64,000 bases of DNA from an uncultured Lentisphaerota bacterium (GTDB taxonomy: Bacteria > Verrucomicrobiota > Kiritimatiellia > CAIQIC01), in assembly GCA_903889245.1 (NCBI GenBank), contig CAISWQ010000068.1, positions 1 through 64,000 of the forward strand, read 5' to 3'. The notes under the pieces were generated by a model. That model searched no databases, was not told the DNA's origin, and saw nothing but the letters and a program-made list of their open reading frames with translations. Position 1 is the stretch's first letter. Every line of letters begins with the position of its first letter. A program made the translations under genes and the position numbers. This document shows positions 8,721 through 64,000 of this stretch, in pieces.

Positions 8721-8795
8721 AGTCATTCCTTCGCGCCGCGCAGCGTAGGCCAGCGTCCCCGTCGCTGCAATCGGAAACAGGGTGGTGGGCCAGGC

Positions 8796-8870
8796 TTCCA
8801 AGCCTTGGGAAAATCCGCGTGAAAAGTTCCAAGGCTTTGGAAAAAGCGCAAATTTTTCCCAAGCCTTGGA
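8796..8870. repeat. Phased palindrome array, 3 copies
   Basis: Copies of the TTTTCCAAG(G/C)CTTGGAAAA family are centred at about 8803, 8834.5 and 8864. They lie in the divergent region between the esterase and the isomerase-like gene. Confidence 0.85.
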
Positions 8871-8893
8871 GGACTGGTTGGGCGTAAATTCGC

Positions 8894-12065: not shown

Positions 12066-12115
12066 CTTTTCCAAGCCTTGGGAAAAACGCTCCTCCCGGT
12101 TTCCAATCCTTGGAT
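12066..12115. repeat. Phased palindrome array, 2 copies
   Basis: Copies are centred at 12076 and 12108 (32 bp apart), directly after the PDZ gene and upstream of the fucosidase. Confidence 0.85.
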
Positions 12116-12123
12116 AACTCCGC

Positions 12124-15692: not shown

Positions 15693-17531
15693 TCATTCAC
15701 GCTCCGGCGAAACGCTCACGCCACTGGAGTCTGAAGAATGAATGCCAAGACCATGGGGCAGATCGGCAATTCTGAATATGTCGCCGTGTTCAATCTTGCT
15801 CCTGTTCGCTTCCAAAAAGTGGAGCCAGTCTTCGCGCATTTTCTGGGCGGAATCGAACTTTTTGGGAACCACCAAATTCCCCCCGACATTGGGACCAACA
15901 ATGATGTCAAAAAGATGTTGAATGATATGGTGCGGCAAATAGTCATTCATGTCTTGGGGTGCCGCGATCCGGGACGCCCAGATGGTGACAGCGTCGTATC
16001 GAGCATTGTATTTCAGCGCGATGTCATTCGCAGCACGTTGCAGCCATTCATTCTCCGCTTTTTTCAGAACGCTCAACGCGAGGTCACGATGGCGTGGATC
16101 GTTCATGCGGCGCGCCGTTTCAAAGGCATAGGTTTGCACGCCCTCATACGTGTCCGTCATCCGTTGTGCGATCAGATCGGAAAGTGACGGCGGAACATTA
16201 TTGGGCAAACACTCGATCGCTTTCATGCGCAGATAGGGCAGCGAATGTTGAAGACCGCGAGCAAACATGGCCCGCTCATCCGGCGAAAGAACTTTGTCGC
16301 CTCCGCCGTGACGCGCGAGGAACACTAACAAATTGCCCGGCGAGAGAGTTTCTGATGCTTCAACATCAAGATTTGAATTGATGGTCAGTGCCGCACCAAC
16401 GAGCGAATCGGCAGCCCGGATGGGGGCGGGATAGTGAATTTCAAATAGGTATTCTGCGTTTGTACCGGCAACCGCAACCTCCAACGCGTTTCGGATGGCT
16501 GGCAGGTCTTCGGATTTTCCGATCAACGAAAGCAGCGAGGTGGCCGTGAGAAAATCTCCGCGATCAGTTCCCGCGAGGAGACGCGCACAAAATTTGCGGA
16601 CGGACGGCGACAGCGATTCGTTCCAGGAATTCGTGATAATGAATTGCCGACGCTCCGCCCCCCACGGGCCGGTGAACGCGCTCTCGGGATGCGGCAACCG
16701 CGGCTCGATCAATTTGGCAGCCTTTGCTGCAAACTCGGCATTGGTGTGTTGCAATAAATCAACCAAGGCAGCGCTTGCGTCCAGCGTTCGAATGCTTCCG
16801 ATGCCATCAAGGGCGTTCTCATTGCCATGCCTTGCCCGCTCCTGCAACGGCCGCAAAAAAGCCGGCCAGCGGATACAGCGGTAATCCAAGCGCGATTTGC
16901 CTTTCTTGCCCCACGTCGGTCCATAATCTGGCTTGGCGTTTTCTTCTTCTGCCAAAATCCGGCGGGTATCCTGCTCGGTGGTTGCGAGTATTTTGATCGT
17001 TGTCTCCACCACACGCGGATCGTTTGTCCGTTGTGGCCCGTAGCCAAGATCATGAAAGGCCCGGACCGTGTATGTGCCCGGCTCATCAAACCGGCAGTAC
17101 TCATGGACATAAACCTTCTCAAACCACTCCCCGCCGGGTTTGATGTCACCACCTGCCATGATTCCGCCGCCACAGTTTCGCATCAACGGCGTGGGATCAG
17201 TAACAGATTTTCCTTTTTTCGAAACAGCAGTGACGGTGAAACGGTCCGCCCGCGTACTCCCTCGATAATCACCACCGGTCGAAATTTCGGCAGTGTTGGT
17301 GCCAGCGTTTTCGATCCGGTAATAAAGCAGGATGGGTTCACCAAGATAGAAATTCGCGCGATCGCCAACCAACTGCACCTTCATACTGGGCGGCCATATC
17401 CCGTCTTTGCCGGACAAATGCAGGAATCCCCGAAACTGATCCGGATGCGCCGCGACAACTTCCAAGGCTTGGAAAAAAGCCAGTGCCAGAATTCCAAGCC
17501 TTGGAATTTTCTGTTTGCGCAGCGTTTGCAT
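15693..17531 (-). CDS. Secreted HEAT-like repeat protein of unknown function
   Basis: The 612-residue product from the ATG at 17531 has an apparent signal peptide whose hydrophobic core is encoded by two copies of the palindrome family (IPRLGILALAFFQALEVVAA). An immunoglobulin-like region (about 45-150) precedes helical HEAT-like repeats (about 210-560) with motifs such as 'RMNDPRHRDLALSVLKKAE'. No catalytic motif is seen; a protein-binding role is likely. Base composition is visibly more AT-rich than its neighbours, hinting at acquisition. It lies 10 bases downstream of a MocA gene, as if in one operon. Confidence 0.65.
   Translation of the reverse strand: MQTLRKQKIPRLGILALAFFQALEVVAAHPDQFRGFLHLSGKDGIWPPSMKVQLVGDRANFYLGEPILLYYRIENAGTNTAEISTGGDYRGSTRADRFTVTAVSKKGKSVTDPTPLMRNCGGGIMAGGDIKPGGEWFEKVYVHEYCRFDEPGTYTVRAFHDLGYGPQRTNDPRVVETTIKILATTEQDTRRILAEEENAKPDYGPTWGKKGKSRLDYRCIRWPAFLRPLQERARHGNENALDGIGSIRTLDASAALVDLLQHTNAEFAAKAAKLIEPRLPHPESAFTGPWGAERRQFIITNSWNESLSPSVRKFCARLLAGTDRGDFLTATSLLSLIGKSEDLPAIRNALEVAVAGTNAEYLFEIHYPAPIRAADSLVGAALTINSNLDVEASETLSPGNLLVFLARHGGGDKVLSPDERAMFARGLQHSLPYLRMKAIECLPNNVPPSLSDLIAQRMTDTYEGVQTYAFETARRMNDPRHRDLALSVLKKAENEWLQRAANDIALKYNARYDAVTIWASRIAAPQDMNDYLPHHIIQHLFDIIVGPNVGGNLVVPKKFDSAQKMREDWLHFLEANRSKIEHGDIFRIADLPHGLGIHSSDSSGVSVSPERE
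17459..17511. repeat. Phased palindrome array, 2 copies, inside a reading frame
   Basis: Copies are centred at 17467 and 17499 (32 bp apart). Both fall within codons of the signal peptide of the HEAT-like gene. Confidence 0.85.
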
Positions 17532-23882: not shown

Positions 23883-23998
23883 TTTTTCCAGGGCCTGGAA
23901 AATATTCCGCCAAAACCTCCAAGCCTTGGAAAAGTTTCCGTGAGTTTTTCCAAGCCTTGGAAAAACCACCGGTTCCTTTTTCCAATCCCTGAAAAACC
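23883..23998. repeat. Phased palindrome array, 4 copies
   Basis: Copies are centred at 23893, 23924, 23955 and 23987 (31, 31 and 32 bp apart). It is the largest array in the window and fills the gap between the beta-helix gene start and the SGNH gene end. Confidence 0.88.
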
Positions 23999-29132: not shown

Positions 29133-29186
29133 ATTTTTCCAGGGATTGGAAACCGCGCACCCCGGTTTTTCCAAGGCTTGGAAAAC
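29133..29186. repeat. Phased palindrome array, 2 copies
   Basis: Copies are centred at 29144 and 29176 (32 bp apart), upstream of the URO-D-like gene. Confidence 0.85.
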
Positions 29187-32508: not shown

Positions 32509-32594
32509 CTTTTTCCAAGGCTTGGAAAAAATGGCGGGCCTGTTTCCAAGCCCTGGAAAAAACACCCGCGCCGGTTTCCAAGCCCTGGAAACCG
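32509..32594. repeat. Phased palindrome array, 3 copies
   Basis: Copies are centred at 32520, 32551 and 32583 (31 and 32 bp apart). The array fills the gap between two hybrid kinase genes. Confidence 0.88.
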
Positions 32595-32613: not shown

Positions 32614-35600
32614 TCAGGCGAGTACATGCTGCAGCACCTTGAGCAGCGCGGCGGCGCTGAAGGGTTTGGCGAGAAACGCCTGCGGGCTCACGCCCACTTC
32701 CCGCAGGATGTCCGGCGACGGGGGCAGTCCGCCCATGACCACCATGGGCAGCCGCGTGTTTCTCTGGCGGATGGCGCGGATGAGGGTCAGCCCATCCATG
32801 CGCGGCATCAGCAGGTCCGTAACCAGGGCCTGTATGGGCTGGCGCAGGTTGGTCAGGATCGAGAGGGCCTCGGCGCCATCCTGCGCCTCAACCACGCGGT
32901 ACTTGTGCGCTTCCAGCATGCGCCGGGTCATGTGACGTACACCCTCCTCGTCATCCACCAGCAGCACCAGTTCGCCGTTGCCGGGTGGCGGCGGCACCTG
33001 GGCCTCGGCGGCCACCGCCTCCTGCACGGCCTCCGTGACAGGCAGGTAGATGCGGAAGGTGGTGCCTTGGCCCATGGTGCTTTGCACCTCGATGAAACCG
33101 CCATGGCTGCGGACGATGCCGAGCACGGTGGAGAGGCCGAGGCCGGTGCCTTCGCCCAGGGCCTTGGTCGTGAAAAACGGATCGAAGATTTTCTCCAGGT
33201 TCTCCGGGGGAATGCCGGTGCCCGTGTCCGTGACGTCCAGCCTGACAAAGCACCCCGCCCTGGCGTCGGGCAGGGCGGCGGCCGCCGCCGCATCCAGCGT
33301 AACGGGTGCGAGACTGAAGGTGAGCGTGCCGCCCGCGGGCATGGCGTCGCGCGCGTTGACGCTCAAGTTCATCAGCACCTGGTGCAACTGCGTCGCATCG
33401 CCGGTGACCAAGGGGAGCTCGGCGTGCATCTGGGTGCGCGTGGAGATGTTCTTGGGGAAGGTTTCGGCGATGATCTTCAGCATCTCGCGCACGACGGTCT
33501 GGAACTGGAGCGGGACACGCTCGCCCTTGAGGCCACGGCCGAAGGCGAGCAACTGCTTGATGATATTGGCGCCCCGCTGGGCGCTGGCCTCGATGGTATC
33601 CACCAGGCTGCGCGCGGCGGGATCCTGGATGGCGTCGCGCAGCAGCGTCGGGGCCATCAGCACCGGGGCGAGGATGTTGTTGAGGTCGTGCGCCACGCCG
33701 CTGGCCAGGCGGCCGACGCTTTCGAGCCGCTGGGTGCGCAGCAGGTGGGCTTCGAGGTTCTTGCGCTCCGTAATGTCCTGCTTGATGGCGATGAAGTGGG
33801 TGCTGGCGCCGCCGGCCTCGCGCAATGGTGTGATGGTCATGTCCTCGGTGAAGAGCGTGCCATCCTTGCGGCGATTGATGATCTCGCCATGCCAGACGTT
33901 GCCGGCGAGGATGATCTGCCACAGCGCGCGATAGAAGGCGGCGTCGTGTTGTCCCGACTTGATCAGGTCGCGCGGGTTTTTTCCGCGCGCCTCCTCCAGG
34001 GTGTAGCCGGTGAGTGTGGTGAAGGCCGGATTGACCCATTCGATGCCACCCTGGGCATCGGTGATGACGATGGCGTTGGCGGCGGCGGCCAGCGCCGCGC
34101 CTTGCAACTGCAAAGCGGCCTCGGTCCGTTTGTGTTCAGAGATGTCGTAGGCAAAGTTCAGGGTTGCGGGCTGGTTCTGCCACTGAATCTGCACCGAGCT
34201 TAAGGAGATCCAGCGTTCCACGCCGTCGCGGAAACGCACGCGGAATTCCTCGCGGCCGGGGAGGTTCTCGCCCGCCGCCAGCCGCCGCTGGCGTTCGGCC
34301 ACGCGGGCCTGCTCGGCGGGCACGGCGAAGCCGGCGCTCCGTTGGCCAATCAGTTCCGCCTCCCTATAGCCGGTCAGCAGGGCGCACGCGCGGTTGGCAA
34401 ACAGGATGATGCCCTCCCGGGCCACGTAGATGGCCTCGCCGGCGTTATCCACCAGCCGGCGATATTGCTCCTCGCTCTCGCGCAACGCCGTGACATCGCG
34501 CAGGGTGCCGGCCGTGCCGGTCACCTGGTCATGCTCGTCGAGGGTCAGACGCGCATGGACCTCGATCCAACGGCAGCCGCCGGACTTGGTCAGGTAGCGG
34601 ATTTCATGGCGGCAATACTCCTTCTGGCGCTCAATCAGCGGCCGGAACAGCTCCTGGTTACGCTGCCGGTCCTCCGGATGCACGTAGTTGAGGAACAGCG
34701 TGCCGAGACTGGCGGCCACAGGGAAGCCGGTGATTTCCTCCCAGGCCTTGTTCAACAGCGTCCAGTGGCCCTGGGCATCGGTCTGGAAAATGACTTCGCG
34801 GACGCTATCCACGACAGAGTGATAGCGCGCCTCGCTCTCCTGCAAGGCCAGGGCCGCGCGCTTGCGGTCACTGATGTCCTCGATGGTGGCCATGGTGCGC
34901 ACCGGCCGCCCGTGGGCGTCCCGGATCACCGTCATGTTCACGCTGACCCACGTCACCGTGCCGTCCTTGCGGAGGTAGCGTTTTTCGATCTGGTAGGAGG
35001 GCTGTTCACCGCCGACGACCCGTTGAAAAGCGTCACGGTCACTGGCGCGATCGTCGGGATGGGTGATGTCGCGGATCCGCATCGTCAGCAGTTCGTCCGC
35101 GGAGTAGCCGGTGAGCGCGCACATCTTGGGATTCACGCGCAGGAAACAACCGCTGCGGGGATCGGCCTGGGCCATGCCGATGGCGGCGGTCTCGAACATG
35201 GCGCGGAATTGTTCCTCGCTCGCCCGCGACGCGGTCATGCTTTCCTCGGCGCGCTTGCGCGCCTCGACCGCGTCCTCCATCATGTTGAGCGCGGCGCGGC
35301 GGGAATCCTGCAGCTCCGCTGCTGCCTGGCGTTGGGCACGGCGCGCAGCCGCATCTTGCAGACTGCGCTCGATCACCGAGGCCAGCCGCGCCAGGCGGTC
35401 CTTGAGGACAAAATCCCAGGCGCCCTGCTTGAGCAGCTCCACCGCGTTCTCCTCGCCCATCGAGCCGGAGACCATGATGACCGGCAGGTCGGGATACTGG
35501 CGCTGAATCCGGCGCAACACCGTTGGGAAGTCGAGGCCGGGGACGTGGTAGTCGGAGAGCACCGCATCCCAACCGCCGGCGGCCAGGGCCGCGGCCAGTT

Positions 35601-35721
35601 CGGCCTCACTGACGACCTGGCGGCAGTCAACCACCAAGCCTTGGTTTTTGAGGTGGCGGTCCAACAGCAGAAAATCGGCGTGATGGTCTTCGATGACCAG
35701 CAGCTTGAGGGTGGTATTCAT
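32614..35721 (-). CDS. Soluble REC-PAS4-HisKA-HATPase-REC hybrid histidine kinase
   Basis: The 1035-residue protein has no membrane segment. An N-terminal receiver (Asp57 in 'VLSDYHVPG') is followed by a coiled coil (about 120-170) and four PAS domains (about 175-660, several ending in 'DISDRKRA' or 'DITERK'-type PAC motifs). The kinase has His in 'LASGVAHDLNNILAP' (about 683) and N/G boxes to about 895. The final receiver (Asp in 'ALVTDLLMPRMDG') completes it. The N-terminal receiver suggests it takes phosphate or a signal from another protein. It starts inside the stop of the kinase-less sensor gene (ATGA), which is the obvious partner. Confidence 0.88.
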   Translation of the reverse strand: MNTTLKLLVIEDHHADFLLLDRHLKNQGLVVDCRQVVSEAELAAALAAGGWDAVLSDYHVPGLDFPTVLRRIQRQYPDLPVIMVSGSMGEENAVELLKQGAWDFVLKDRLARLASVIERSLQDAAARRAQRQAAAELQDSRRAALNMMEDAVEARKRAEESMTASRASEEQFRAMFETAAIGMAQADPRSGCFLRVNPKMCALTGYSADELLTMRIRDITHPDDRASDRDAFQRVVGGEQPSYQIEKRYLRKDGTVTWVSVNMTVIRDAHGRPVRTMATIEDISDRKRAALALQESEARYHSVVDSVREVIFQTDAQGHWTLLNKAWEEITGFPVAASLGTLFLNYVHPEDRQRNQELFRPLIERQKEYCRHEIRYLTKSGGCRWIEVHARLTLDEHDQVTGTAGTLRDVTALRESEEQYRRLVDNAGEAIYVAREGIILFANRACALLTGYREAELIGQRSAGFAVPAEQARVAERQRRLAAGENLPGREEFRVRFRDGVERWISLSSVQIQWQNQPATLNFAYDISEHKRTEAALQLQGAALAAAANAIVITDAQGGIEWVNPAFTTLTGYTLEEARGKNPRDLIKSGQHDAAFYRALWQIILAGNVWHGEIINRRKDGTLFTEDMTITPLREAGGASTHFIAIKQDITERKNLEAHLLRTQRLESVGRLASGVAHDLNNILAPVLMAPTLLRDAIQDPAARSLVDTIEASAQRGANIIKQLLAFGRGLKGERVPLQFQTVVREMLKIIAETFPKNISTRTQMHAELPLVTGDATQLHQVLMNLSVNARDAMPAGGTLTFSLAPVTLDAAAAAALPDARAGCFVRLDVTDTGTGIPPENLEKIFDPFFTTKALGEGTGLGLSTVLGIVRSHGGFIEVQSTMGQGTTFRIYLPVTEAVQEAVAAEAQVPPPPGNGELVLLVDDEEGVRHMTRRMLEAHKYRVVEAQDGAEALSILTNLRQPIQALVTDLLMPRMDGLTLIRAIRQRNTRLPMVVMGGLPPSPDILREVGVSPQAFLAKPFSAAALLKVLQHVLA

Positions 35722-38700
35722 GGCTGGTCCTTGCCCGCTGGCTGATCGAAGTCCAGGGGATAGGGCGGCGGTTTATCCAGTGCGCGGCTCAACTGGTTGA
35801 TCTGTTGCTTGAGCTCGATCATCCGCAGTTCACGGCCGACCGAGGCGCGGTTGAAGCGTTCCAACTCCTCGTTACGGGCGCGGATTTCGCGCTCGCTTTG
35901 CAGGCGCTCCGTGAGGTCATGGAAGGAGGCGACCCACAGCTCGCCGATGGGATGCATGATGATTTCCACCTCGCGCCTGCCGCCCTCCTTGCAGGTCACC
36001 TGATAAACCCGCGGCGGGGTGGCGCAGCCTTGGCGGACCGCCTCGGCGCTATCGGCCTCCCACTGGGTCAGCACCTGTTGCCGATAGGCGGCATCGGGAT
36101 AGGCCCGCTCTAACCAGACGCTGATGGTGGGTGCGTCGTTGAGCTCGTAGCCATAACGGGCGGTGAAGGCCGGATTGAAATATTGAATGGTGCCATCCTT
36201 CCTGGCCACGCTGGCGGGGATGGGCAGGGCCTCCAGCATGCTGCGCAGGCGCTCTTCGCTCGCGCGCAGCGCCTCCTCGGCCCGTCTGCGTACGGTCTCA
36301 TCGCGCAGGACGCCGAAGGTGGATTGCAAGTGCCCCTCGGCATGGATGGGGATCCAGCGGTCTTCGATGAATTTCAGGGTGCCGTCCTGGCAGCGCCACC
36401 AGGATTGCCAGGACTGCGGGAGAGCGCCATCGGCTTGCTGCTGTAACGCGACGAAGCGGTGGCGCTGTTCCGCGAAGGCGTCGTGCTGAATGATGGCGGC
36501 GAGGAAGGCTTCGCGTCCGCCCATGCGCGCCACATCGTCCAACGTGTAGCCGAGCATCCGTTGGAAGGCGGGGCTGACGTAGTCGAACTCGCCGGTCTGG
36601 CCATTCACGCTGTAGAGCACGTCCTCGACGGCGGCCGTCATCTGCTGGAAACGCGCTTCGCTGCGTTGCAAGGCCTCCTCCGCCCGCTTGCGGTCGGTGA
36701 TATCGCGGGACCACTGGAGCATCTTCTCGGTCTTGCCATCCGGCCCCGGCAGGGGCTTGCACTGGGTATCCATCCATAACCAGTCCCCGTTCTTGCAGAG
36801 CATCCGGTACTCGATCCGGGTGGCTGTGCCGGCGAGGTTGGCCGCCCGCGCCTTTTCCACCACCGGCAGGTCCTCGGGATGGATGCGCTTCCGCCAGTCG
36901 CCGGCATAGCCGGACTGGAAGTCTTCCAACGACCAGCCGGTGACGCGCGGGAGCGAGGGGCTGACATACAGCCGGCGGCCATCCGCATGGTTGAGCGACA
37001 CGAAATCGTCCGCGTTGTCGGCGAGCAGCCGGTAGTGTTCTTCGCTCGCGCGCAACTGCTCCTCGGCCTGCGCGCGTTGTGCCGCCGTTTCCAGGTTGTC
37101 CAGCGCGAAGGAAATATCCAGCGCCGCCTCCTCCAGCAGTGCGATTTCCTTGTCCTGGAAAACACCGGGCTCATCGGCATAGACGGCGAGCGCTCCGCAG
37201 ACCTGGCCGCCAAACTTCAGCGGCAAGGCCGCCACGGCGCGCAGCCCGTGCTGTACGGCTGCCTCACGCCAGGCCAGGGCGCGCGGGTCATCCAGAAAAT
37301 TATTGAAGATGCACGGCCGGCCTGCACGCAGGCAAAGACCGAGGGGCCCCTGTCCTTCCGGCGCGGCCTCGGCCGTGACCTTGATCTTGTCGAGATAGCC
37401 CTGCTCTGCGCCGGCGCGGCCGACCGGCCACACGGCGCGCGTGACGGGCTCCAGCCAGCCAATCCAGACCAGTTTGAAACCGGCATACTCGGCGGTGACG
37501 CGGCAGACCTCGCGGAACAACTCGTCACGCGAGGTCACCCGGACCAGGCATTGGTTGATCTGGCTCAAGGTGGCGTAGAGCCGGGTCAGCCGCGCGATCT
37601 CGCGCTCCTGCGCCTTGCGTTCGCTGATGTCGCGGGCCAGCCCGAGCAGGTAGCCGACGCCATCCAGTTCGATCCGTTTCATGCTGACTTCTACGGGGAA
37701 GATCGTGCCCTCCTTGCGCTGCACCTCGGTTTCATAGCGCAAGGCGCCTGTTTTCCGCAGCCGCTCCAGTTGGAGGGATAGTTCGGCGCGCCGGCTGGCC
37801 GGGCGCAACCCGGCCAGGTTCATCTGCCGGAGTTCAGTCTGGGTATAGCCGGTGGCTTCCAGGACACGGTCATTGGCCTCGAGCATCTGGCCGCGCTCGT
37901 CCAGGAGCAGAATCAAATCGTTGGCGTGCTTCATCAGGTGTTCGACCCGCTCGGCCAATATCCGGCGGTCGTGCTCCAAGGCGAGGTCGGCGCTGATACG
38001 CCGGACTTCGCGCTGCTTGCGGACCAGCCAGAACGCCACTCCGATCAACCCCGTCACTGCCAGCGTCACCAGGAGCGTCAGCCAGGCCTGGTGATAGAGC
38101 GGGTCCAGCAGTTCAGCGCGGTCCATCTTGGTCACCAGGAACCAGGGCGAGTTGGACACGGCGCGCGTATCCGCCAGCACGGGCACGCCGCGATAGTCCA
38201 CGCCTTCCACCGTGCCGGTCTGACCCAGCACGGCCAGCACCGCCGGTATTTTGCTCCGCGGTTCGAGGGGAAAACTCAAGCGCAGGGCCGCGTTGCTCTG
38301 GTGGCGCAGGTCGTTAAGAAAAAGCGTCGTGTCCCCCTCGCGCCGCACCAGCAGCGTCTCGGCGCTCCGGCTGGAGGTCTCCAGCGAGTGTAAAATCTGT
38401 TCCAAGCCGTGCGCCGTGTCCGCGCGCAGGAGAAAATAACCGCTGGGTGGCGTGGGCTTGCCGGCCAGTTCGCCGCTGGGCAAAACGGGAAAGACTAGAT
38501 CCAGATGGGGATGATTGGTCATCGGCGCAAAATGCAGGTCTGCTACCAACAGACGGCGCTCACGCAGGAGGTTGGTGTGCAGGTCAGGCGCCAACCGGGG
38601 CGCGGCTCCCGGCTTTTCCGGCCACACCAGCCGCGGTGCGCCCTGCGCATCAAACAGCGCAATCATGGAAAACCGATCCGGCCCCGTGAAGTTGGCGCAG

Positions 38701-39656
38701 CGGCCCAGCAACTTCTCGCGACTGCTCTGCTCGCCGGGATGGTTCAGAAACGCTTCCACCTCATCGCACAAACGGGTGGCTTGCGAAAAGAGCCACGCCT
38801 CCCGCCACTGGTGATCCCGCCAGTGGCCCACGCTTCCGGCTTTCAGGTCACCGATGGACTTGAGCAACTTGAGAGCTTCCAGGCGACGATGGGCCTGTTC
38901 GGCGCGCAGGTAACCGGCGGAGACCGCGCCCAGCAGCAGCGCCATCAGGATGGTCAAGATTGGCCAGGGCAAACCGAGCAGACGTTCGCGCAGGGGGGCT
39001 TCCGGTCCGGGCACAGGGTTGAGGGTGGGGGCCAACAGCAACGCCAGTCCCAACAACATACAGGCCAGCGCCGTCGGGAACGCAACCGGAATGGAAACCA
39101 GGTCGTACCACCACGGTTGCGCGAAACCGTAACTGATGGCGGTTCCCGCGCCCAGGCCCGTGACCAGCCAGGCCAGCAACCTTGACCACCACCGCGCACC
39201 GGCCAGATTGCCGGCCGGCGGCAGTTGCAAGGCCAGCGCAAAACTGATGACGCCCAGCAAGGCGCCCGTCACCGGGGACATCTGTCCCACAGGTACCGCA
39301 CCCAACTGCACGCTGCCGTGGGCCAACCAGTCTTCCCAAGGCGAAGCCCAGCCCAGCCAGGGACGGAACAGGGCCAGCGCGCCGACGAAGGCGGATAGAA
39401 AAACCACACCCCACGCCAACCCGGTGGCGCTGCGGGCGGATTGAGGACGCAGGTGGGCCACCAGCACCACCGCCAACCCTGCCAGTGCCAACGCCGTGCT
39501 GGGCGCCATGGGAATCTGCCGCGGATTAAAGGACAGCAGGTCGCTCACGCCGGCCAGCCAGCTCCACAGCACCACTACCGCCAGAACGCCGGCGGCCACC
39601 GCCAGGGCGGCGCTGCCTTTGCGCTGCCAACTCCACGCTGTTTCCACCCACACCAT
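35718..39656 (-). CDS. Giant membrane PAS/GAF sensor lacking a kinase domain
   Basis: The start is the ATG at 39656, with GGAGGAG 8 bases upstream. The 1312-residue protein has about seven TM segments (15-265), a periplasmic region (about 270-525), one more TM, then PAS (about 575-690), GAF (about 700-865) and three PAS domains (about 875-1260). It ends in a charged helix with VGRELRMIELKQQIN and PPPY (35760-35867), shared with two sensors at 50321 and 52177. There is no histidine kinase, cyclase or methyl-accepting region, so output must go through a partner. The overlapping hybrid kinase is the best candidate. Confidence 0.82.
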   Translation of the reverse strand: MVWVETAWSWQRKGSAALAVAAGVLAVVVLWSWLAGVSDLLSFNPRQIPMAPSTALALAGLAVVLVAHLRPQSARSATGLAWGVVFLSAFVGALALFRPWLGWASPWEDWLAHGSVQLGAVPVGQMSPVTGALLGVISFALALQLPPAGNLAGARWWSRLLAWLVTGLGAGTAISYGFAQPWWYDLVSIPVAFPTALACMLLGLALLLAPTLNPVPGPEAPLRERLLGLPWPILTILMALLLGAVSAGYLRAEQAHRRLEALKLLKSIGDLKAGSVGHWRDHQWREAWLFSQATRLCDEVEAFLNHPGEQSSREKLLGRCANFTGPDRFSMIALFDAQGAPRLVWPEKPGAAPRLAPDLHTNLLRERRLLVADLHFAPMTNHPHLDLVFPVLPSGELAGKPTPPSGYFLLRADTAHGLEQILHSLETSSRSAETLLVRREGDTTLFLNDLRHQSNAALRLSFPLEPRSKIPAVLAVLGQTGTVEGVDYRGVPVLADTRAVSNSPWFLVTKMDRAELLDPLYHQAWLTLLVTLAVTGLIGVAFWLVRKQREVRRISADLALEHDRRILAERVEHLMKHANDLILLLDERGQMLEANDRVLEATGYTQTELRQMNLAGLRPASRRAELSLQLERLRKTGALRYETEVQRKEGTIFPVEVSMKRIELDGVGYLLGLARDISERKAQEREIARLTRLYATLSQINQCLVRVTSRDELFREVCRVTAEYAGFKLVWIGWLEPVTRAVWPVGRAGAEQGYLDKIKVTAEAAPEGQGPLGLCLRAGRPCIFNNFLDDPRALAWREAAVQHGLRAVAALPLKFGGQVCGALAVYADEPGVFQDKEIALLEEAALDISFALDNLETAAQRAQAEEQLRASEEHYRLLADNADDFVSLNHADGRRLYVSPSLPRVTGWSLEDFQSGYAGDWRKRIHPEDLPVVEKARAANLAGTATRIEYRMLCKNGDWLWMDTQCKPLPGPDGKTEKMLQWSRDITDRKRAEEALQRSEARFQQMTAAVEDVLYSVNGQTGEFDYVSPAFQRMLGYTLDDVARMGGREAFLAAIIQHDAFAEQRHRFVALQQQADGALPQSWQSWWRCQDGTLKFIEDRWIPIHAEGHLQSTFGVLRDETVRRRAEEALRASEERLRSMLEALPIPASVARKDGTIQYFNPAFTARYGYELNDAPTISVWLERAYPDAAYRQQVLTQWEADSAEAVRQGCATPPRVYQVTCKEGGRREVEIIMHPIGELWVASFHDLTERLQSEREIRARNEELERFNRASVGRELRMIELKQQINQLSRALDKPPPYPLDFDQPAGKDQP

Positions 39657-39758
39657 CACATGCTCCTCCAACGTTGCTCACCCGCTCGCGGAACACTCCG
39701 CAGCCCGATGACGACGATACTATAACGCCGGGGACGGAGAATCCGGTAGGCGGGGCCT

Positions 39759-39774
39759 GTAGGATTTTTCCTAC
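39759..39774. promoter_or_regulatory. GTAGG-N6-CCTAC palindrome upstream of the sensor operon
   Basis: GTAGG (39759-39763) and CCTAC (39770-39774) are separated by ATTTTT. The spacing resembles NarL/FixJ/GacA-type sites. On the minus strand a TATAGT-like box (about 39718-39723) follows about 46 bp from the site centre, compatible with activation of the sensor gene. Confidence 0.5.
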
Positions 39775-39809
39775 CCAAAAAACGCAGGGTGCCGCCCGCC
39801 ACGGTGGTG

Positions 39810-39848
39810 AAAAAACGGCCCGCTTCCTTGGGGCGGGAAGCGGGCCGT
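39810..39848 (-). terminator. Rho-independent terminator
   Basis: A perfect 13-bp stem (39815-39827 with 39836-39848, ACGGCCCGCTTCC) with an 8-base loop is followed on the minus strand by a run of T (complement of the A run 39810-39815). It ends transcription coming from the regulator gene or from a short RNA. Confidence 0.8.
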
Positions 39849-40035
39849 GGGGTACATGACACGCCCAGAGGGGTGGACCGGGCGCATCGGGGGTGCCAAA
39901 AAACGGAGCGGGGGAACCTCCCGCAGGCTCCTCGTCCAGCCAGTTTCAAAGAACAGCAACCCGGCGCGGGGATGAATCCCGCGCGCCAAGCGGCGTCATC
40001 CTCCCGCCAGCCCGCCCCGTTGTCCAGATTTTCAG
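39810..40035 (-). ncRNA. Candidate small RNA or long 3' UTR (low confidence)
   Basis: The region from just after the regulator-type palindrome (40048-40063) to the strong terminator could be a transcript of about 200-230 bases. Its minus-strand sequence has several GGA motifs and two hairpins. The layout recalls GacA-activated small RNAs, but there is no homology evidence and no clear promoter. It may simply be untranslated 3' sequence of the regulator mRNA. Confidence 0.25.
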
Positions 40036-40047
40036 CGGGAACAGGCC

Positions 40048-40063
40048 GTAGGATTTCCCCTAC
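40048..40063. promoter_or_regulatory. Second GTAGG-N6-CCTAC palindrome
   Basis: GTAGG (40048-40052) and CCTAC (40059-40063) flank ATTTCC. It has the same half-sites and spacing as the palindrome at 39759, and lies 121 bases past the stop of the NarL-type regulator gene. Confidence 0.5.
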
Positions 40064-40111
40064 AGGCCGATCACGGGCAGTGCCGCCTGGCTCCCTGCGT
40101 GGGCCAAGGCG

Positions 40112-40166
40112 GTTTTTTCCAAGGCTTGGAAAAGTCAACCCCTCCCTGTTCCAAGCATGGGAAAAC
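40112..40166. repeat. Phased palindrome array, 2 copies
   Basis: Copies are centred at 40124 and 40156 (32 bp apart), just past the end of the NarL-type regulator gene. Confidence 0.85.
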
Positions 40167-40183
40167 CGTGACCGCGGGCGGGC

Positions 40184-40837
40184 TCAGGGCAGCAGACGAT
40201 GGTCGGTGGCGTAGCGAATCAGGGCGGCGGTGCTGGTCAGCCGCAGCTTGATCAGCAGACGGCCGCGGTAGGTGCTGACCGTCTTCTGGCTCACGCCCAG
40301 CCGCGCGGCGATTTCCTTGCCGGTCTGGCCGGCGGCGAGCAGGCGCAGGACTTCGAACTCACGGTCGGACAAGCGCTCGTGCGGCAGGACGATGGCCCGG
40401 GTGGGGGCGGCGTTCAGGCGCGCGGCCACCGCCGGCGGCAGATAGGTCCCACCGGCCAGCACGCTCCGCACCGCCTGCGCCAGTTCCTCCGGCGCGCGCT
40501 CCTTGGCCAGATAGCCGGCGGCGCCGAACTTGAGGGCGCGCAGCGCAAACTGATCCTCGGGGTGGACGCTGAACATCAAGACCGGCAGCCGGGGCTGGCG
40601 TTCCCTGACTTCGCGCAGCACATCGAAGCCATCGCGATCCGGCAGGGACACGTCGAGAATCAACAGGCGCCATCGCCGGTCCTCAAGCTGGCGGAAAATG
40701 GCGGCGGCATCCGCGGCCTCGCCAAACACCGAATGTGGAAACGTCTCCTGCAATAACTGGCGGATGCCCAGCCGGGTGACGGCATGGTCATCCGCAAGCA
40801 GGATGCAGAGGGAGCGCGCTGGCTTTTTCTTCTTCAT
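40184..40837 (-). CDS. NarL/FixJ-family response regulator
   Basis: The start at 40837 overlaps the kinase stop (ATGA). The 217-residue protein has a receiver domain ('LLADDHAVTRLG', phospho-Asp in 'LLILDVSLPDRDG', Lys in 'YLAKERAPEEL') and a LuxR-type helix-turn-helix (about 150-210: 'LSDREFEVLRLLAAGQTGKEIAARLGVSQKTVSTY'). It should bind short inverted repeats as a dimer when phosphorylated by the adjacent HisKA_3 kinase. GTAGG-N6-CCTAC palindromes lie immediately downstream. Confidence 0.92.
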   Translation of the reverse strand: MKKKKPARSLCILLADDHAVTRLGIRQLLQETFPHSVFGEAADAAAIFRQLEDRRWRLLILDVSLPDRDGFDVLREVRERQPRLPVLMFSVHPEDQFALRALKFGAAGYLAKERAPEELAQAVRSVLAGGTYLPPAVAARLNAAPTRAIVLPHERLSDREFEVLRLLAAGQTGKEIAARLGVSQKTVSTYRGRLLIKLRLTSTAALIRYATDHRLLP

Positions 40838-43371
40838 GGCGTCGTCTGGGGGATGCGGAGGCTGGCCCGGGTGCCGCCGCCGGGCGCGCGGCCGATCTCC
40901 GCCGCACCGCCGAATTCCCGCGCCCGCTCGCGCAGGCCCAGCAGCCCCAGCGCGCGCGGGTCCGAACACTCCTGCTCGGTGATGCCGCGCCCGTTGTCAA
41001 CAACCTCCAACTGCACCCAGCCGGCCGCCAGCGTCACACGCACCTGCACGGCGGTGGCCCGCGCATGTTGCGCCACGTTGGCGAGCAACTCCTGTAGAGC
41101 CCGGAATAACGCCGCCGAGCGGCGGGCATCCAGCGTTAGGGGCTCGGCCGGCAACGCCACCTGGCAAGCGATGTGGGTCTGCTCGCCAAACTGCTGCACG
41201 GCCCATTCCAACGCGGCGGTAAAGCCCAGCGAGTCCAGCACGGCCGGGTGCAAGGTGGTGGAGAGTGTGCGCGCCGTGTGGAGGCTGTCCTCGACCTGCT
41301 GGCCCATGGCCGCCAGTTTGCGCCGCAGGGCCGAGCGCCGGGTCAGTTTGCGCTCCGCCAGCCGGCGGTCGAGCCAAGCCAGATCGAGTTTGAGGCTGGT
41401 AAAGGTGTGACCCAGGTCGTCATGAATCAGGCGGGCGATGCGCTGCCGTTCAGACTCACGCGCCGCCTGCAGGCGGGCCATCAGCGCGCGCAACGCCGTC
41501 TGCGAAGCCGCCAACTCCGCCTCGGCCTGCTTGCGCGCCGTGATGTCGGTGATGGTGCCGACCATCCGCAACGGGGCCCCACCGGCGTCGCGCTCCACCA
41601 CGCGGCCGCGGCCCAACACCCACAGCAGCGAACCATCCTTGCGCAGCATGCGGTAGTCGAACACGCTTTGCGTGGTCCGCCCCTGCAGGTGGTCTTCCAT
41701 CGCCTGCCAAGTTGCTGGCCAATCCTCCGGGTGCACCAGGCGTTTATAAAACTCCAGATCAGGCACGACTTCGCCAGGCTGGTAACCGGTCATCTCGTAA
41801 TAACGCGGACTCAAATAAGCCCGGTCCGTACGAAAATCCCAATCCCAAACACCATCGGCCGTGGCCGCCAGCACCAATTGCAGCCGCGCCTCACTCTCCC
41901 GCAACGCCTGCTCGGCCTGCTTGCGGTCCGTGATGTCAAAAGAGGCCCCCGTGATGCCCACCACGGCGCCGGTGGCATCACGCAACGGTTCCACCACCAG
42001 GTCATAGCTTTTGACGCCGCCCTCCCAGGCCACGGCTACCTCCCTGCGGACGACGCCGCCGGCGGCGATGGCTTCGCGTTTGGCCTGGACGGCCTGTGCC
42101 GCGGCGGCTGGCGGCAGCAGATCAAAATCGGTTTTCCCCACCACCTGCTCCACGGTGTAGCCAAGCTGGGGCTGGAACATCCACGTGTAACGCAAAGCCA
42201 AATCCTGGTTGAACACCGCCACGTTGGGCGCCGACAAAGCCACCCGCAGCCGTTGCTCATTTTCCCGCAGCGCCGTTTCCGCCTCCTTGCGCGCCGTGAT
42301 GTCCTGCATGATGACCAGCGCAGAGGCGCCGGCTGGGTCCAGCGGCGCTGCGCTGACCAGCAGCCAGATTTTTCCGCCGGTCTGCGTGACCACCCCCACC
42401 TCGTCATCCTGAATGATCCGGTCCTCACGCAAGGCCCGCGCGCTGGCAAACTCATCAGGCGTCAGCGGCGTACCATCACCATGGATATACTGAAGCTGGA
42501 GATGCCGGCCGGCCAGCAGGTCGGCCCGCGTCAGGCCGCTGATTTTCTCCACGGCAGGATTGCAGTCCGTGATCTGGCGCGCGGCGTTCAGCAGCGAGAT
42601 GCCCACGGGGGCCAGCTCGAAGATGGTCCGGAATTTCCGCTCGCTCTGGCGCAGGGCTGCCTCGGCGCGTTTGCGCTCGGTGATGTTGATGCCATAGAGC
42701 AGGGCCGCCTCCGCCGCCGGCAGACCCTGCAGGGTGAACAGGAAATGTTTCTCACAGACCGGGGCTTCGATTTCAAACCGCGTGCCGTTCTGTATATGGT
42801 CGGCCAGGTCCAGATGCTGCAAGAGGGGGATGATTTCACCCAGGCTGGCACCGGCACGCAGCCCGATGGCTTCCGCGGCCAGGTTTGCCACCAGCACTGC
42901 TCCCGTGAGGCTCACGCGCAGGACCGGCCCGGGATTATACTGCGGGAAAAGCGTCATGGCCTGGAGGCGTTCATCCAGGGCCCGGTGGGCCGTGATGTCG
43001 CGGATGATCATGCTCGTCTTGCGCTGGCCATCGCGGTCGGTGAACACCGCGCTCGTCACCTCGCCGTAAAAACGGCTGCCATCGGGACGCAGGAAAGCCA
43101 GCTCGCGACGCGCCTGGCCGGTCTGCTCCCGTTCCGCCAGCGCCTGCACCAGATGCGGATCGGAAAGGTCCAGCAGCCCGTTGCGACCCAGCCGGCAAAT
43201 CTCCGCCTCGGTGCGGTCGAAGAGGTTGCAGGCCGCCGGGTTCGCCGCAAAAATGCGGCCGTCGGGCGCGGTCAGCAGGAGCGCATCGAGGCTGTGGTCC
43301 CAGATGGACTGCAGCAGGTGTTCGCGCGCGGAGACACCCGGCGTGGGAGGCGCTGACGCGTCGGTGTTCAT
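40834..43371 (-). CDS. Soluble multi-PAS HisKA_3 histidine kinase
   Basis: The 845-residue protein starts at the ATG at 43371. It has about five PAS domains (roughly 20-625) with repeated 'ITERKRAE'-type PAC ends. A NarX/DegS-type dimerisation domain follows with His in 'RIARLIHDDLGHTFTSLKL' (about 655), then a HATPase_c with 'ELLANVAQHARA', 'VVDNGRGI' and 'GLLGLRERAREFGG'. There are no TM helices, so the signal is cytosolic, for example redox, ligand or light through PAS. It pairs with the overlapping NarL-type regulator. Confidence 0.9.
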   Translation of the reverse strand: MNTDASAPPTPGVSAREHLLQSIWDHSLDALLLTAPDGRIFAANPAACNLFDRTEAEICRLGRNGLLDLSDPHLVQALAEREQTGQARRELAFLRPDGSRFYGEVTSAVFTDRDGQRKTSMIIRDITAHRALDERLQAMTLFPQYNPGPVLRVSLTGAVLVANLAAEAIGLRAGASLGEIIPLLQHLDLADHIQNGTRFEIEAPVCEKHFLFTLQGLPAAEAALLYGINITERKRAEAALRQSERKFRTIFELAPVGISLLNAARQITDCNPAVEKISGLTRADLLAGRHLQLQYIHGDGTPLTPDEFASARALREDRIIQDDEVGVVTQTGGKIWLLVSAAPLDPAGASALVIMQDITARKEAETALRENEQRLRVALSAPNVAVFNQDLALRYTWMFQPQLGYTVEQVVGKTDFDLLPPAAAAQAVQAKREAIAAGGVVRREVAVAWEGGVKSYDLVVEPLRDATGAVVGITGASFDITDRKQAEQALRESEARLQLVLAATADGVWDWDFRTDRAYLSPRYYEMTGYQPGEVVPDLEFYKRLVHPEDWPATWQAMEDHLQGRTTQSVFDYRMLRKDGSLLWVLGRGRVVERDAGGAPLRMVGTITDITARKQAEAELAASQTALRALMARLQAARESERQRIARLIHDDLGHTFTSLKLDLAWLDRRLAERKLTRRSALRRKLAAMGQQVEDSLHTARTLSTTLHPAVLDSLGFTAALEWAVQQFGEQTHIACQVALPAEPLTLDARRSAALFRALQELLANVAQHARATAVQVRVTLAAGWVQLEVVDNGRGITEQECSDPRALGLLGLRERAREFGGAAEIGRAPGGGTRASLRIPQTTP

Positions 43372-43558
43372 TTTTTTCGCGATGCAGCATAGCGCGAATC
43401 CGGGGAGGGACGAATCTTTTTTCCGAGGTCCGGGCGCACTTGTCCCGCCCGGCGCAGTCGCCCGGCCATCCCCGGCTTGCAGCCACCCGGAAACCGCGCT
43501 TGCGTGCGCAGAAGCGTTGGGGCACACTGCGTGTGCGTAGTGTGGGTTGGTGAGGACC

Positions 43559-45580
43559 ATGGCGGCCGAAAACGAACAAGCTTCGTTGGTGGTCAAGGGC
43601 GGGCGCTGGTACGCGGGGCTGGCGTTGTTGACCCTGGCGTTGTTCGGTCTGCGCACCATCAGCCACTCTGATTTCTGGATGACCCTCGCCAGCGGCCGCT
43701 GGATTGCCATCCATGGCGCGCCCCATACCGATCCCTTCTCGCTGTTAAAACCCGAAGCACCGTGGCTGGACCCGATGTGGCTCTATGACCTGATGGTCTA
43801 TTACCTCTGGACCTACGGCGGCGCGGCGCTGGTGACGGTGGTGCATATCGCGGCGGTGCTCGCGGCCTTCGGCCTGTTGATCCGCGCCGCGCGGCCGCTG
43901 GGCGGGCCACTCTCCATCGCGACCGCGCTGCTGGTGGCGGCGTGGCTGCTGGGCCCGGCGTTCGTGACGCGGGCGCGGGTGTTCACGCTGCTCTTTCCAG
44001 CGCTGTTCATCTGCTGCCTGGCGCGGCACAGTGACCGCTGGTGGCTGTGGCTGGTGTTGGTGCCGGCACAGGTGCTGTGGACCAACATGCACCACACGTT
44101 CCGGCTGGGGCCGGTCATCTGTCTGTTGTTCGCGCTCCAGGAGTGGTTCCGCTGGCGCCGGGCGTGCCGGCAACCCGAGGGCGCCGTGGCGGTGGCGCGG
44201 CGCGCCTGGCTCAATCCGCTGTTGCTGGCAGGGGGCGCGTTGGCGGCGACATGGGTGAATCCCTATGGCCTGAATATCTATGCCGCAGTCAGCAGCGTCG
44301 GCTGGGGCTCCGGCAACCTCCTGGCAGCCGAGCAGGTGTCGGTCTTCAGCTATATGTTTGGCGGCAGCGATAAGAACGCGCTGATCTGGGCGGCGGCGGT
44401 GGTCAACCTGATGGGCCTGGTCGCGGAGAAGCACCGCCTGCCGCCGGCCATCACGCTGCTGGCCTTGCTTGGCACCGGGCTGGCGATCATGACGCCACAC
44501 TATGCGACCATCATGGCGGTGTTCTCGTTCCCGTTTTTTGTGTTGAGCATGCGCGCGGTCGGGCTGTTCCTCTGGGACTCCTTCGCCGAGGTGGTGCAGC
44601 GGCGGCAGGAGTTGTTCAGGCGCTTGCTGGTCGGCGGCCTGCTGGCGGTCACGCTCTTCAGCCTCGCCCGGTTGGTCTCCAATCATTATTACTGGGACCA
44701 CGGCAGCGGCTCCGCCTTTGGCCTGGGCGCCAACGAGGAAGCGCTGCCGGCGGCGGCGGGCATGCTCATTGGCCAGGAAAAATTCCCGGTCGCCCTGCTC
44801 AACCATGCGCTGGACGGCGGCAACCTGCTGTGGCACCTGCCACGGCGGAAAGTGGCGCTTGACGCCCGTGTCCCGGTGCATGGCGCCGCCCTGTTGCAAC
44901 TCACGGCCAAGGGGTTGGCCGGTGATGGCCCGGCGTGGCGCAGCATCGAGGAGCGGTTGCGGCCCACGGCGGTCCTGATCAACTGCTGCCAGCCTCAAGC
45001 CATCCTGGGCGTGCGGACCATTCTGGCCACCGGCCGGTGGGGGCTGGCCTATTTCGATGGCACCAGCGCGCTGCTGTTGCTCCAGCTACCGGAACAGCGC
45101 GTGTGGTTCGAGAACCAGCAGGTCCGTATGCTGGGGCTGGCCAATCTGGAACTCGCCCGCCGCGCCTACGAAAAGCGGCTGGCCCGGCACTGGTTCCCGG
45201 CGCACTCGCCCGCGCTGATCGGCGCGGGCCATCTGCTGCAGGCGCTGGAAAAGTTCGATGAGGCGGAGAAGTTCTATCTGCTGCTGACGCAGGGCGCGCC
45301 CAACATGGCGGGCGCGTGGCTGGACTTGGGCATCTGCCGTTGCCGCCTGGGCCGCTGGCAGGAGGCGCTGGCGCCGTTGCGCCGCGCGCTCGACGGCATG
45401 CCGCAGAACGTCATGGGTTGGTTGTGGTATAGCCGGGCCTGCCAGCAAACCGGCTCACCTGTGGAAGCGCGCGAGGCCCAGCAGCGGGCCCAAAAACTCA
45501 ACCCCAATCTCGCGGCCCAGTTCGCGGCCGAGCTGCCCGCGCCCGTTACCACCAACCAGTTCGCCCCCCGCCTGCGTTGA
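43559..45580 (+). CDS. Polytopic membrane protein with C-terminal TPR
   Basis: The start at 43559 is chosen because it is the first ATG after GTGAGG; an upstream TTG (43547) is possible. The 673-residue product has about ten to twelve TM helices (20-395) and a soluble C-terminal part with TPR-like repeats (about 535-655). The signature 'HSDFWMTLASGRWIAIHGAPHTDPFS' recurs in PVC membrane proteins related to O-antigen-ligase or GT-C glycosyltransferases. A role in cell-surface glycan assembly is inferred. It is transcribed divergently from the PAS kinase. Confidence 0.65.
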   Translation: MAAENEQASLVVKGGRWYAGLALLTLALFGLRTISHSDFWMTLASGRWIAIHGAPHTDPFSLLKPEAPWLDPMWLYDLMVYYLWTYGGAALVTVVHIAAVLAAFGLLIRAARPLGGPLSIATALLVAAWLLGPAFVTRARVFTLLFPALFICCLARHSDRWWLWLVLVPAQVLWTNMHHTFRLGPVICLLFALQEWFRWRRACRQPEGAVAVARRAWLNPLLLAGGALAATWVNPYGLNIYAAVSSVGWGSGNLLAAEQVSVFSYMFGGSDKNALIWAAAVVNLMGLVAEKHRLPPAITLLALLGTGLAIMTPHYATIMAVFSFPFFVLSMRAVGLFLWDSFAEVVQRRQELFRRLLVGGLLAVTLFSLARLVSNHYYWDHGSGSAFGLGANEEALPAAAGMLIGQEKFPVALLNHALDGGNLLWHLPRRKVALDARVPVHGAALLQLTAKGLAGDGPAWRSIEERLRPTAVLINCCQPQAILGVRTILATGRWGLAYFDGTSALLLLQLPEQRVWFENQQVRMLGLANLELARRAYEKRLARHWFPAHSPALIGAGHLLQALEKFDEAEKFYLLLTQGAPNMAGAWLDLGICRCRLGRWQEALAPLRRALDGMPQNVMGWLWYSRACQQTGSPVEAREAQQRAQKLNPNLAAQFAAELPAPVTTNQFAPRLR

Positions 45581-47134: not shown

Positions 47135-47217
47135 GTTTTCCAGGGATTGGAAACCCGAGCGGGGTGTTTTTCCGAACCTTGGAAAAGGTGGCGGAAAATT
47201 TTCCAAGGCTTGGAAAC
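47135..47217. repeat. Phased palindrome array, 3 copies
   Basis: Copies are centred at 47145, 47177 and 47208 (32 and 31 bp apart), filling the gap between bfr and the HNH gene. Confidence 0.88.
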
Positions 47218-49357: not shown

Positions 49358-49440
49358 ATTTTTCCAAGGCTTGGAAAAAACAGGCTCAACTTTTCCAAGC
49401 TTTGGAAAACCACCGGCGGTTTTTTCCGGGGCTTGGAAAG
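49358..49440. repeat. Phased palindrome array, 3 copies, between convergent genes
   Basis: Copies are centred at 49369, 49400 and 49431 (31 bp apart). It is the only array lying between convergent gene ends, so it may act in termination here. Confidence 0.88.
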
Positions 49441-61286: not shown

Positions 61287-61855
61287 AACTGCTGGACATT
61301 GTGCGCGGCGAGTTGGGCGGGTGTCATCCGCGCCTGCATTTTTTCCAGGGCTTCGTCGCGCTGCTGCCGGCCGAGGGCTTCATCCGCCTGCGCCCGCGCC
61401 TCTACCGCCTCGGCGGCGTGCGCCTCGGCCACGGCACCGTCCTCTCCGGCCGCCTGCGCCTGACCGGTGCCGGCCCGGTCACGCGGCGGCTGATCATCGG
61501 CGCGCGCTGCTACCTTAACGAAAACATCACCTTCAACCTCGGCGGCGAGGTTGTTCTCGAAGACCACGTCTCGGTCGGCATGGAGTGCCTCTTCATCACC
61601 AACACCCACGAGTTGGGGGCGCCGGACTTTCGCGCCGGTACGGTCCACGCCAAGCCCATCCGCGTCGGCCGCGGCGCGTGGCTCGGCGCGCGCGTCACCG
61701 TGCTGCCCGGCGTGACGATTGGCGCGGGCGCGGTCATCGCCGCCGGCGCGGTCGTGGCCAAGGACGTGCCGCCGAACGTCCTCGCCGGCGGCGTCCCCGC
61801 CAAGGTCATCCGCGAGCTGCCGAGCGGTTTCCAAGCCGTGGAAAAACAGCCATGA
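61283..61855 (+). CDS. Hexapeptide-repeat acyltransferase
   Basis: The 190-residue left-handed beta-helix protein has 'EDHVSVGMECLFITNTHE' (catalytic His in the NTHE motif) and 'RGAWLGARVTVLPGVTIGAGAVIAAGAVV', typical of maltose/galactoside or WcaF-like O-acetyltransferases. It probably acetylates the exopolysaccharide. ATGA overlaps join it to both neighbours. Its last residues (GFQAVEKQP) are encoded by a copy of the palindrome family, so the repeat has replaced or extended its C-terminus. Confidence 0.85.
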   Translation: MKLLDIVRGELGGCHPRLHFFQGFVALLPAEGFIRLRPRLYRLGGVRLGHGTVLSGRLRLTGAGPVTRRLIIGARCYLNENITFNLGGEVVLEDHVSVGMECLFITNTHELGAPDFRAGTVHAKPIRVGRGAWLGARVTVLPGVTIGAGAVIAAGAVVAKDVPPNVLAGGVPAKVIRELPSGFQAVEKQP

Positions 61856-61879
61856 CCCTTTTCCAAGCCTTGGAAAAAT
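61824..61879. repeat. Phased palindrome array, 2 copies, across a gene junction
   Basis: Copies are centred at 61836 and 61868 (32 bp apart). One encodes the end of the acyltransferase, the other residues 3-8 of the GH44-like protein. Confidence 0.85.
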
Positions 61880-63435: not shown

Positions 63436-64000
63436 AAGCGGACGTGGTCAGCAGGCAGCGGATGACAACCAGGCGCCGGATTTTCCAAGCTTGGGAACAG
63501 GCTGGCGTGGGTTTTTCCAAGCCTTGGAAAAAAGCCCTCCGCCACTTTCCAAGCCTTGGAAAACTCGTCGCGGTCGCCTTGCTTTTCTCCGGGTGCGCCA
63601 CGCAGATCGTTTTGCCGCCCGCGCTGCCGGCCGCCAAGGCGCCGAGCCGCGGCCTGACGCCGGAGCAGCTCAAGTCGCTCCAGACGGAACTCGGCGACTA
63701 TAAACTCGGCGCGGGCGATGAGATTCAGATCTATGCCATGGACATCGCGGAGCTGAACCGCAAGTATGTGATCGGCCCGGATGGCAAGATCACCGTGCCG
63801 GGTTTCGGCGTGGTGCTGCTCGATGGCCAGACGCGCGAGCAGGCGGCGAAACGGATCACGGACCTGGTCAAGGTGCAGTACCGTCAGCCGCGGGTGGACG
63901 TGCTGGTGGAGGCCTACAACAACAACCGCATCTTCGTGCTCGGCGAGGTGCGCAAGCCGGGCCAGTATAATTTCCCCGGCCGGCCGCTGCTGCTCTCGGC
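63432..64000 (+). CDS. Wza-like polysaccharide export lipoprotein (partial, runs off the window)
   Basis: From the ATG at 63432 (ATGA overlap with the GH44-like stop) the frame stays open to the window end, giving at least 189 residues. After a very basic n-region of about 45 residues comes a hydrophobic stretch and the lipobox LLFSGC (Cys codon 63594-63596). The polysaccharide export domain follows ('YKLGAGDEIQIYAMDIAELNRKYVIGPDG') and then the start of an SLBB domain ('NNRIFVLGEVRKPGQY'). It should form the outer-membrane export channel. The n-region is made of three palindrome copies; the ATG at 63462 is an alternative start. Confidence 0.88.
   Translation, partial: MKADVVSRQRMTTRRRIFQAWEQAGVGFSKPWKKALRHFPSLGKLVAVALLFSGCATQIVLPPALPAAKAPSRGLTPEQLKSLQTELGDYKLGAGDEIQIYAMDIAELNRKYVIGPDGKITVPGFGVVLLDGQTREQAAKRITDLVKVQYRQPRVDVLVEAYNNNRIFVLGEVRKPGQYNFPGRPLLLS
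63480..63565. repeat. Phased palindrome array, 3 copies, inside a reading frame
   Basis: Copies are centred at 63489.5, 63522 and 63554 (32.5 and 32 bp apart). All are translated in frame as the signal-peptide n-region of the Wza-like lipoprotein (IFQAWEQ, FSKPWKK, HFPSLGK). Confidence 0.88.

Follow-up and report, generated by a model that had tools for sequence, protein, structure and literature searches.

Two GTAGG-N6-CCTAC palindromes beside a NarL-type response regulator gene are probable operators, one of them upstream of a sensor operon

The window, a 64,000-nucleotide stretch of the genome of an uncultured Lentisphaerota bacterium, includes an intergenic gap (39657-40183) that separates, on the minus strand, a kinase-regulator pair from a sensor operon. 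The pair had been recognized in a sequence-only reading of this DNA as a HisKA_3 kinase with a NarL regulator, and Pfam confirms both. A PAS-rich histidine kinase with HisKA_3 and HATPase_c domains (40834..43710, minus strand; start codon uncertain) is followed by a NarL/LuxR-type response regulator (RR; 40184..40819, minus strand) with the recognition helix SQKTVSTYR. The Response_reg and GerE domains of the RR both score over the Pfam cut-off (PF00072, 3.8e-24; PF00196, 4.2e-18), and its phosphorylation residues D11, D56, S84 and K106 are invariant in an alignment of nine sequences (A1). By its predicted domains the RR is thus a NarL/FixJ (LuxR-type) regulator, with a receiver, a GerE helix-turn-helix and intact phosphorylation residues. 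On the other side of the gap, Pfam identifies a giant PAS/GAF sensor of 1,312 amino acids from its ATG (35718..39656, minus strand), the end of which is overlapped by the gene of a REC-PAS-HisKA-HATPase-REC hybrid kinase (32614..35721, minus strand). The two genes presumably form one operon. The sensor lacks a kinase domain and its gene overlaps that of the hybrid kinase, so it may act through this partner.

Two palindromes with identical half-sites and 6-bp spacing had been reported in the gap, and both are indeed present and exact. Site 1 (GTAGGATTTTTCCTAC, 39759-39774) lies upstream of the sensor operon and site 2 (GTAGGATTTCCCCTAC, 40048-40063) 124 bp past the RR coding end; each is a probable RR operator. 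The genome-wide search that had been suggested for this palindrome returned the two gap sites only: the exact pattern GTAGGNNNNNNCCTAC, i.e. GTAGG-N6-CCTAC, is found at two places in the whole 5.26 Mb genome, both inside the gap, while a reversed-pattern control occurs 11 times in the same genome. By simple arithmetic, two random sites in 5.26 Mb would fall within about 300 bp of each other with a chance of about 1e-4. Each of 37 relatives has 0-2 copies of the pattern in its genome and 2-24 of the control. Several copies of the pattern in genomes G036, G006 and G010 lie directly 3' of NarL-type RR genes. The exact 16-mer of site 1 has one copy in the same-genus genome G003 (L146:8247-8262), where no sensor ortholog lies downstream. 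This copy sits within a longer palindrome, CCTGTAGGATTTTTCCTACAGG, flanked by a ribonucleotide-reductase-like gene on one side and a second gene on the other.

Other features of the gap are terminators and repeats. The strong minus-strand intrinsic terminator of the sequence-only reading is real, with 13 pairs followed by T6 (39815..39848), and probably ends the kinase-regulator transcript. Two weaker terminator-like hairpins, each also followed by T6, were found on the same strand at 39908..39924 and 39784..39799. Previously overlooked were two units, 32 bp apart, of a dispersed palindromic repeat of the TTTTCCAAGGCTTGGAAAA type (40115..40165). This palindrome occurs at 27 places in the 64 kb window, where 0.03 matches would be expected; most copies are grouped into short arrays that have 2-4 units at intervals of 31-32 bp (8794-8873, 12067-12117, 17458-17476, 23884-23996, 29135-29185, 32511-32592, 40115-40165, 47136-47217, 49360-49440, 61827-61877 and 63481-63563). 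The exact pattern has about 470 copies in the genome and 309, 162 and 48 copies in three same-genus genomes; control matches were zero.

The DNA behind homologous RR genes was screened for inverted repeats at 89 loci (80 named loci and nine from the same genome, genus or class as the window). All inverted repeats in the 350 bp downstream of each RR gene were ranked blindly. Among 5-mer repeats with gaps of 0-12, GTAGG-N6 headed the ranking at 9 loci, whereas no motif in the control regions exceeded 4-5 loci, and the next in rank, TAGGA-N4 and TGTAG-N8, are the same motif. Among 4-mer repeats with gaps of 0-14, GTAG-N8-CTAC came first with 19 of the 89 loci. Its 20 exact sites in the 39.6 kb behind RR genes compare with 0.4 expected there and with 8 in 727 kb elsewhere (p ~4e-20). 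The palindrome typically lies 7-130 bp past the RR stop codon, and its carriers are RR genes of Acidobacteria, Betaproteobacteria, Bacteroidetes and Verrucomicrobiota. Two of four plasmid-borne homologs have the site as well (L183, L184). Among open-licence papers, none was found that reports the motif for these regulators.

The exact site is absent from 70 of the 89 homologs of the first set and from 24 of 25 loci in a second sample, from Verrucomicrobiota; the one site in that sample (L173) shows a full palindrome-N18-CCGATA layout. The closest RR, a same-genus protein with 65% identity, lacks the site and has a different neighbouring gene, and conservation of the gap at this closest ortholog was accordingly rejected. 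As most homologs, including the nearest regulator, lack the exact site, we infer that the regulon may have been rewired repeatedly.

In several homologous loci, a second CCTAC half-site lies 20-23 bp beyond the palindrome and is followed about 18 nt on by a -10-like C[CT]GATA. The second CTAC stands exactly 23 bp after the first at 5 of the 20 sites, and 14 of the 89 loci have CCTAC-N16-20-CYGAT[AT] behind the RR, compared with 19 occurrences in 723 kb elsewhere. Site 1 of the window has a related arrangement on the minus strand: an extra CCTAC (39746..39750) lies 13 bp after its CCTAC arm, against the 20-23 bp of the homologous loci; CGTTATAGT, which contains a -10-like TATAGT (39719..39724), starts exactly 18 nt after this extra half-site; and a ribosome-binding-site-like GGAGGA (39664..39669) stands 7 nt before the ATG at 39656. 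A plausible promoter of the sensor operon thus accompanies site 1, in a variant spacing. Neither CYGATA nor a TATA-like element was found at the homologous-loci spacing from site 2, which has no recognizable promoter, and a sigma-70 consensus scan of the gap gave no match.

As read from sequence, the gene behind the site often encodes either a receiver domain standing alone or a further NarL-type regulator (L053, L064, L067, L068, L069, L070, L089, L092, L099 and L104). In L038 a receiver-sensor kinase follows the site, in the same gene order as in the window. The annotated Paraburkholderia plasmid L184 also has a window-like order, with a CHASE-domain protein, an RR, the palindrome, the half-site, CCGATT and a response regulator. 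The window fits this pattern of signalling neighbours, as the neighbour of its RR is a signalling operon. The 39759 site had been predicted to control the sensor operon, and its position, the -10-like TATAGT and the gene order shared with L038 and L184 all support such control, which we regard as likely.

Other types of genes were also seen behind the regulators. Within one related family, four genomes (L041, L042, L152, L153) have a palindrome of the same kind between a NarL-type regulator and a gene resembling asparaginyl-tRNA synthetase, an unexpected target. CCTAC-N18-CYGATA behind the regulator precedes TDT-family-transporter-like genes in L100, L106 and L111 and a molybdopterin-type-oxidoreductase-like gene in L097. 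The identities of all these genes were read from their sequences.

The half-site varies with the recognition helix of the regulator. Where the third residue of the SxKTxSTxx helix is Lys, 22 of 24 half-sites are GTAGG, whereas RRs with Thr or Asn there have it in none of 16 and carry GTAGT or GTAGA instead (Fisher 2e-9 per half-site, 1e-5 per locus). The later-found loci L173, L183 and L184 agree, each combining Lys with at least one GTAGG arm. The Thr/Asn RRs belong to essentially one broad lineage, the Bacteroidetes, so the covariation may be founded on few independent evolutionary events. The covarying position aligns with Lys179 of DosR, one of three residues through which DosR is reported to contact DNA bases (PMC4082495). 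DosR/DevR is the best solved-structure match to the window RR by sequence; the other two base contacts, Lys182 and Asn183, differ, being Ser and Thr in the window RR.

Given their enrichment behind homologous genes and the covariation of half-site and RR, the palindromes most likely serve as operators for the NarL-type RR encoded next to them. The earlier prediction that they are sites of this regulator is thus strongly supported, with rarity in the genome pointing the same way. Chance features of a GC-rich gap would be an exceedingly improbable source of both palindromes: although shuffles of the window gave at least two matches with at most one mismatch in 4 of 100 cases, the only two copies in the genome share one gap and the same motif stands in the same place in unrelated phyla. 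A chance origin is already strongly disfavoured. It is also very unlikely that the palindromes serve a different transcription factor, or form an RNA hairpin at the RR 3' end, with the adjacent RR not binding them. Both palindromes are indeed located 3' of the RR gene, and as RNA each could fold into a 6-bp stem. However, neither palindrome is followed by a T-tract, and the covariation of the half-site with the recognition-helix residue, the second half-site 23 bp on and the -10-like element at a fixed distance together point to DNA bound by the RR family.

The sequence-only reading had further proposed a regulator-controlled small RNA. In this explanation site 1 would drive the sensor operon, and site 2 a GacA/RsmZ-like small RNA of about 130-220 nt, encoded on the minus strand and ending at about 39903 or 39810. 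The palindrome, a structured stretch and the strong terminator do follow each other on one strand, and GacA/UvrY sites, TGTAAG-N6-CTTACA (PMC4950607), share this half-site geometry, with TGTARG-N6-CYTACA in common with the window. The window half-site differs in being GTAGG rather than GTAAG, and the GacA equivalog model (NCBIfam NF007018) matches the window RR at 121 bits, below its cut-off of 280. A further difference is that no CsrA was found in the window genome, which is 96.6% complete, while control genomes gave a positive match; lacking CsrA, the genome would have no Rsm pathway. The claimed structure of the stretch holds with the terminator (z -3.5) and is weak once the terminator is left out (z -1.9, with 8 of 200 shuffles as good), and a terminator would be expected at this place anyway for the upstream operon. 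No Rfam match in the window exceeded the gathering score, and a relaxed search gave weak sub-threshold matches only, of which most on the minus strand span the terminator. A search of 288 genomes of the class for homologous DNA gave nothing more than copies of the dispersed repeat and a few matches no longer than about 30 bp. As no promoter element of the homologous-loci type follows the 40048 site, and as the Rfam, folding, homologous-DNA and CsrA searches were all negative or weak, we rejected the small RNA and consider it unlikely. The stretch makes better sense as the place where the kinase-regulator operon ends, comprising its 3' end and its terminators.

Among characterized systems, BvgA offers a further likeness at the level of the sites. 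BvgA promoters bind dimers at 22-bp intervals, of which the last abuts the -35 region; the primary fhaB site is TAAGAAATTTCCTA (PMC7250471). Site 1 of the window matches this primary site at 11 of 14 positions and is of the inverted heptad TAGGAAN type, and several homologous loci suggest dimers in tandem at a distance of about two helical turns, the last one against -35. The second half-site of site 1 is 13 bp away, not 22, and its presumed target is a sensor operon. With MctR/MctS the likeness is in the proteins. MctR is the best NCBIfam model for the window RR (NF052445), at 132.8 bits against a cut-off of 300, and MctS is among the best for the kinase, far below its cut-off (118 against 700).

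With good confidence we favour the reading in which both palindromes operate for the RR, site 1 activating the sensor operon and site 2 being a second operator, and in which the terminators end the kinase-regulator transcript. The PAS/HisKA_3 kinase would phosphorylate the RR, and the phosphorylated RR would bind GTAGG-N6-CCTAC as a dimer. At site 1 it would activate, rather than repress, the sensor operon, and one two-component system would thereby control the supply of another. Site 2, with no promoter of its own in view, may be auxiliary. The three minus-strand terminators would insulate the sensor promoter.

A broader proposal, to which we give an even chance, is that of a cross-phylum operator code. 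Genes of this NarL subfamily would carry their own target promoter just 3' of the stop codon and activate the receiver or sensor gene that follows, and one helix residue at the DosR Lys179 position, Lys or Thr/Asn, would set base five of the half-site (GTAGG or GTAGT/GTAGA). The correlation of residue and base offers a hypothesis for RR specificity. For this organism, an uncharacterized kinase-regulator pair gains a concrete predicted target in the adjacent sensor operon, and with it a putative wiring between two signalling systems. For the regulator group, the recurrence of the layout in several phyla may provide a way to predict the targets of many orphan NarL-type regulators from the DNA 3' of their genes.
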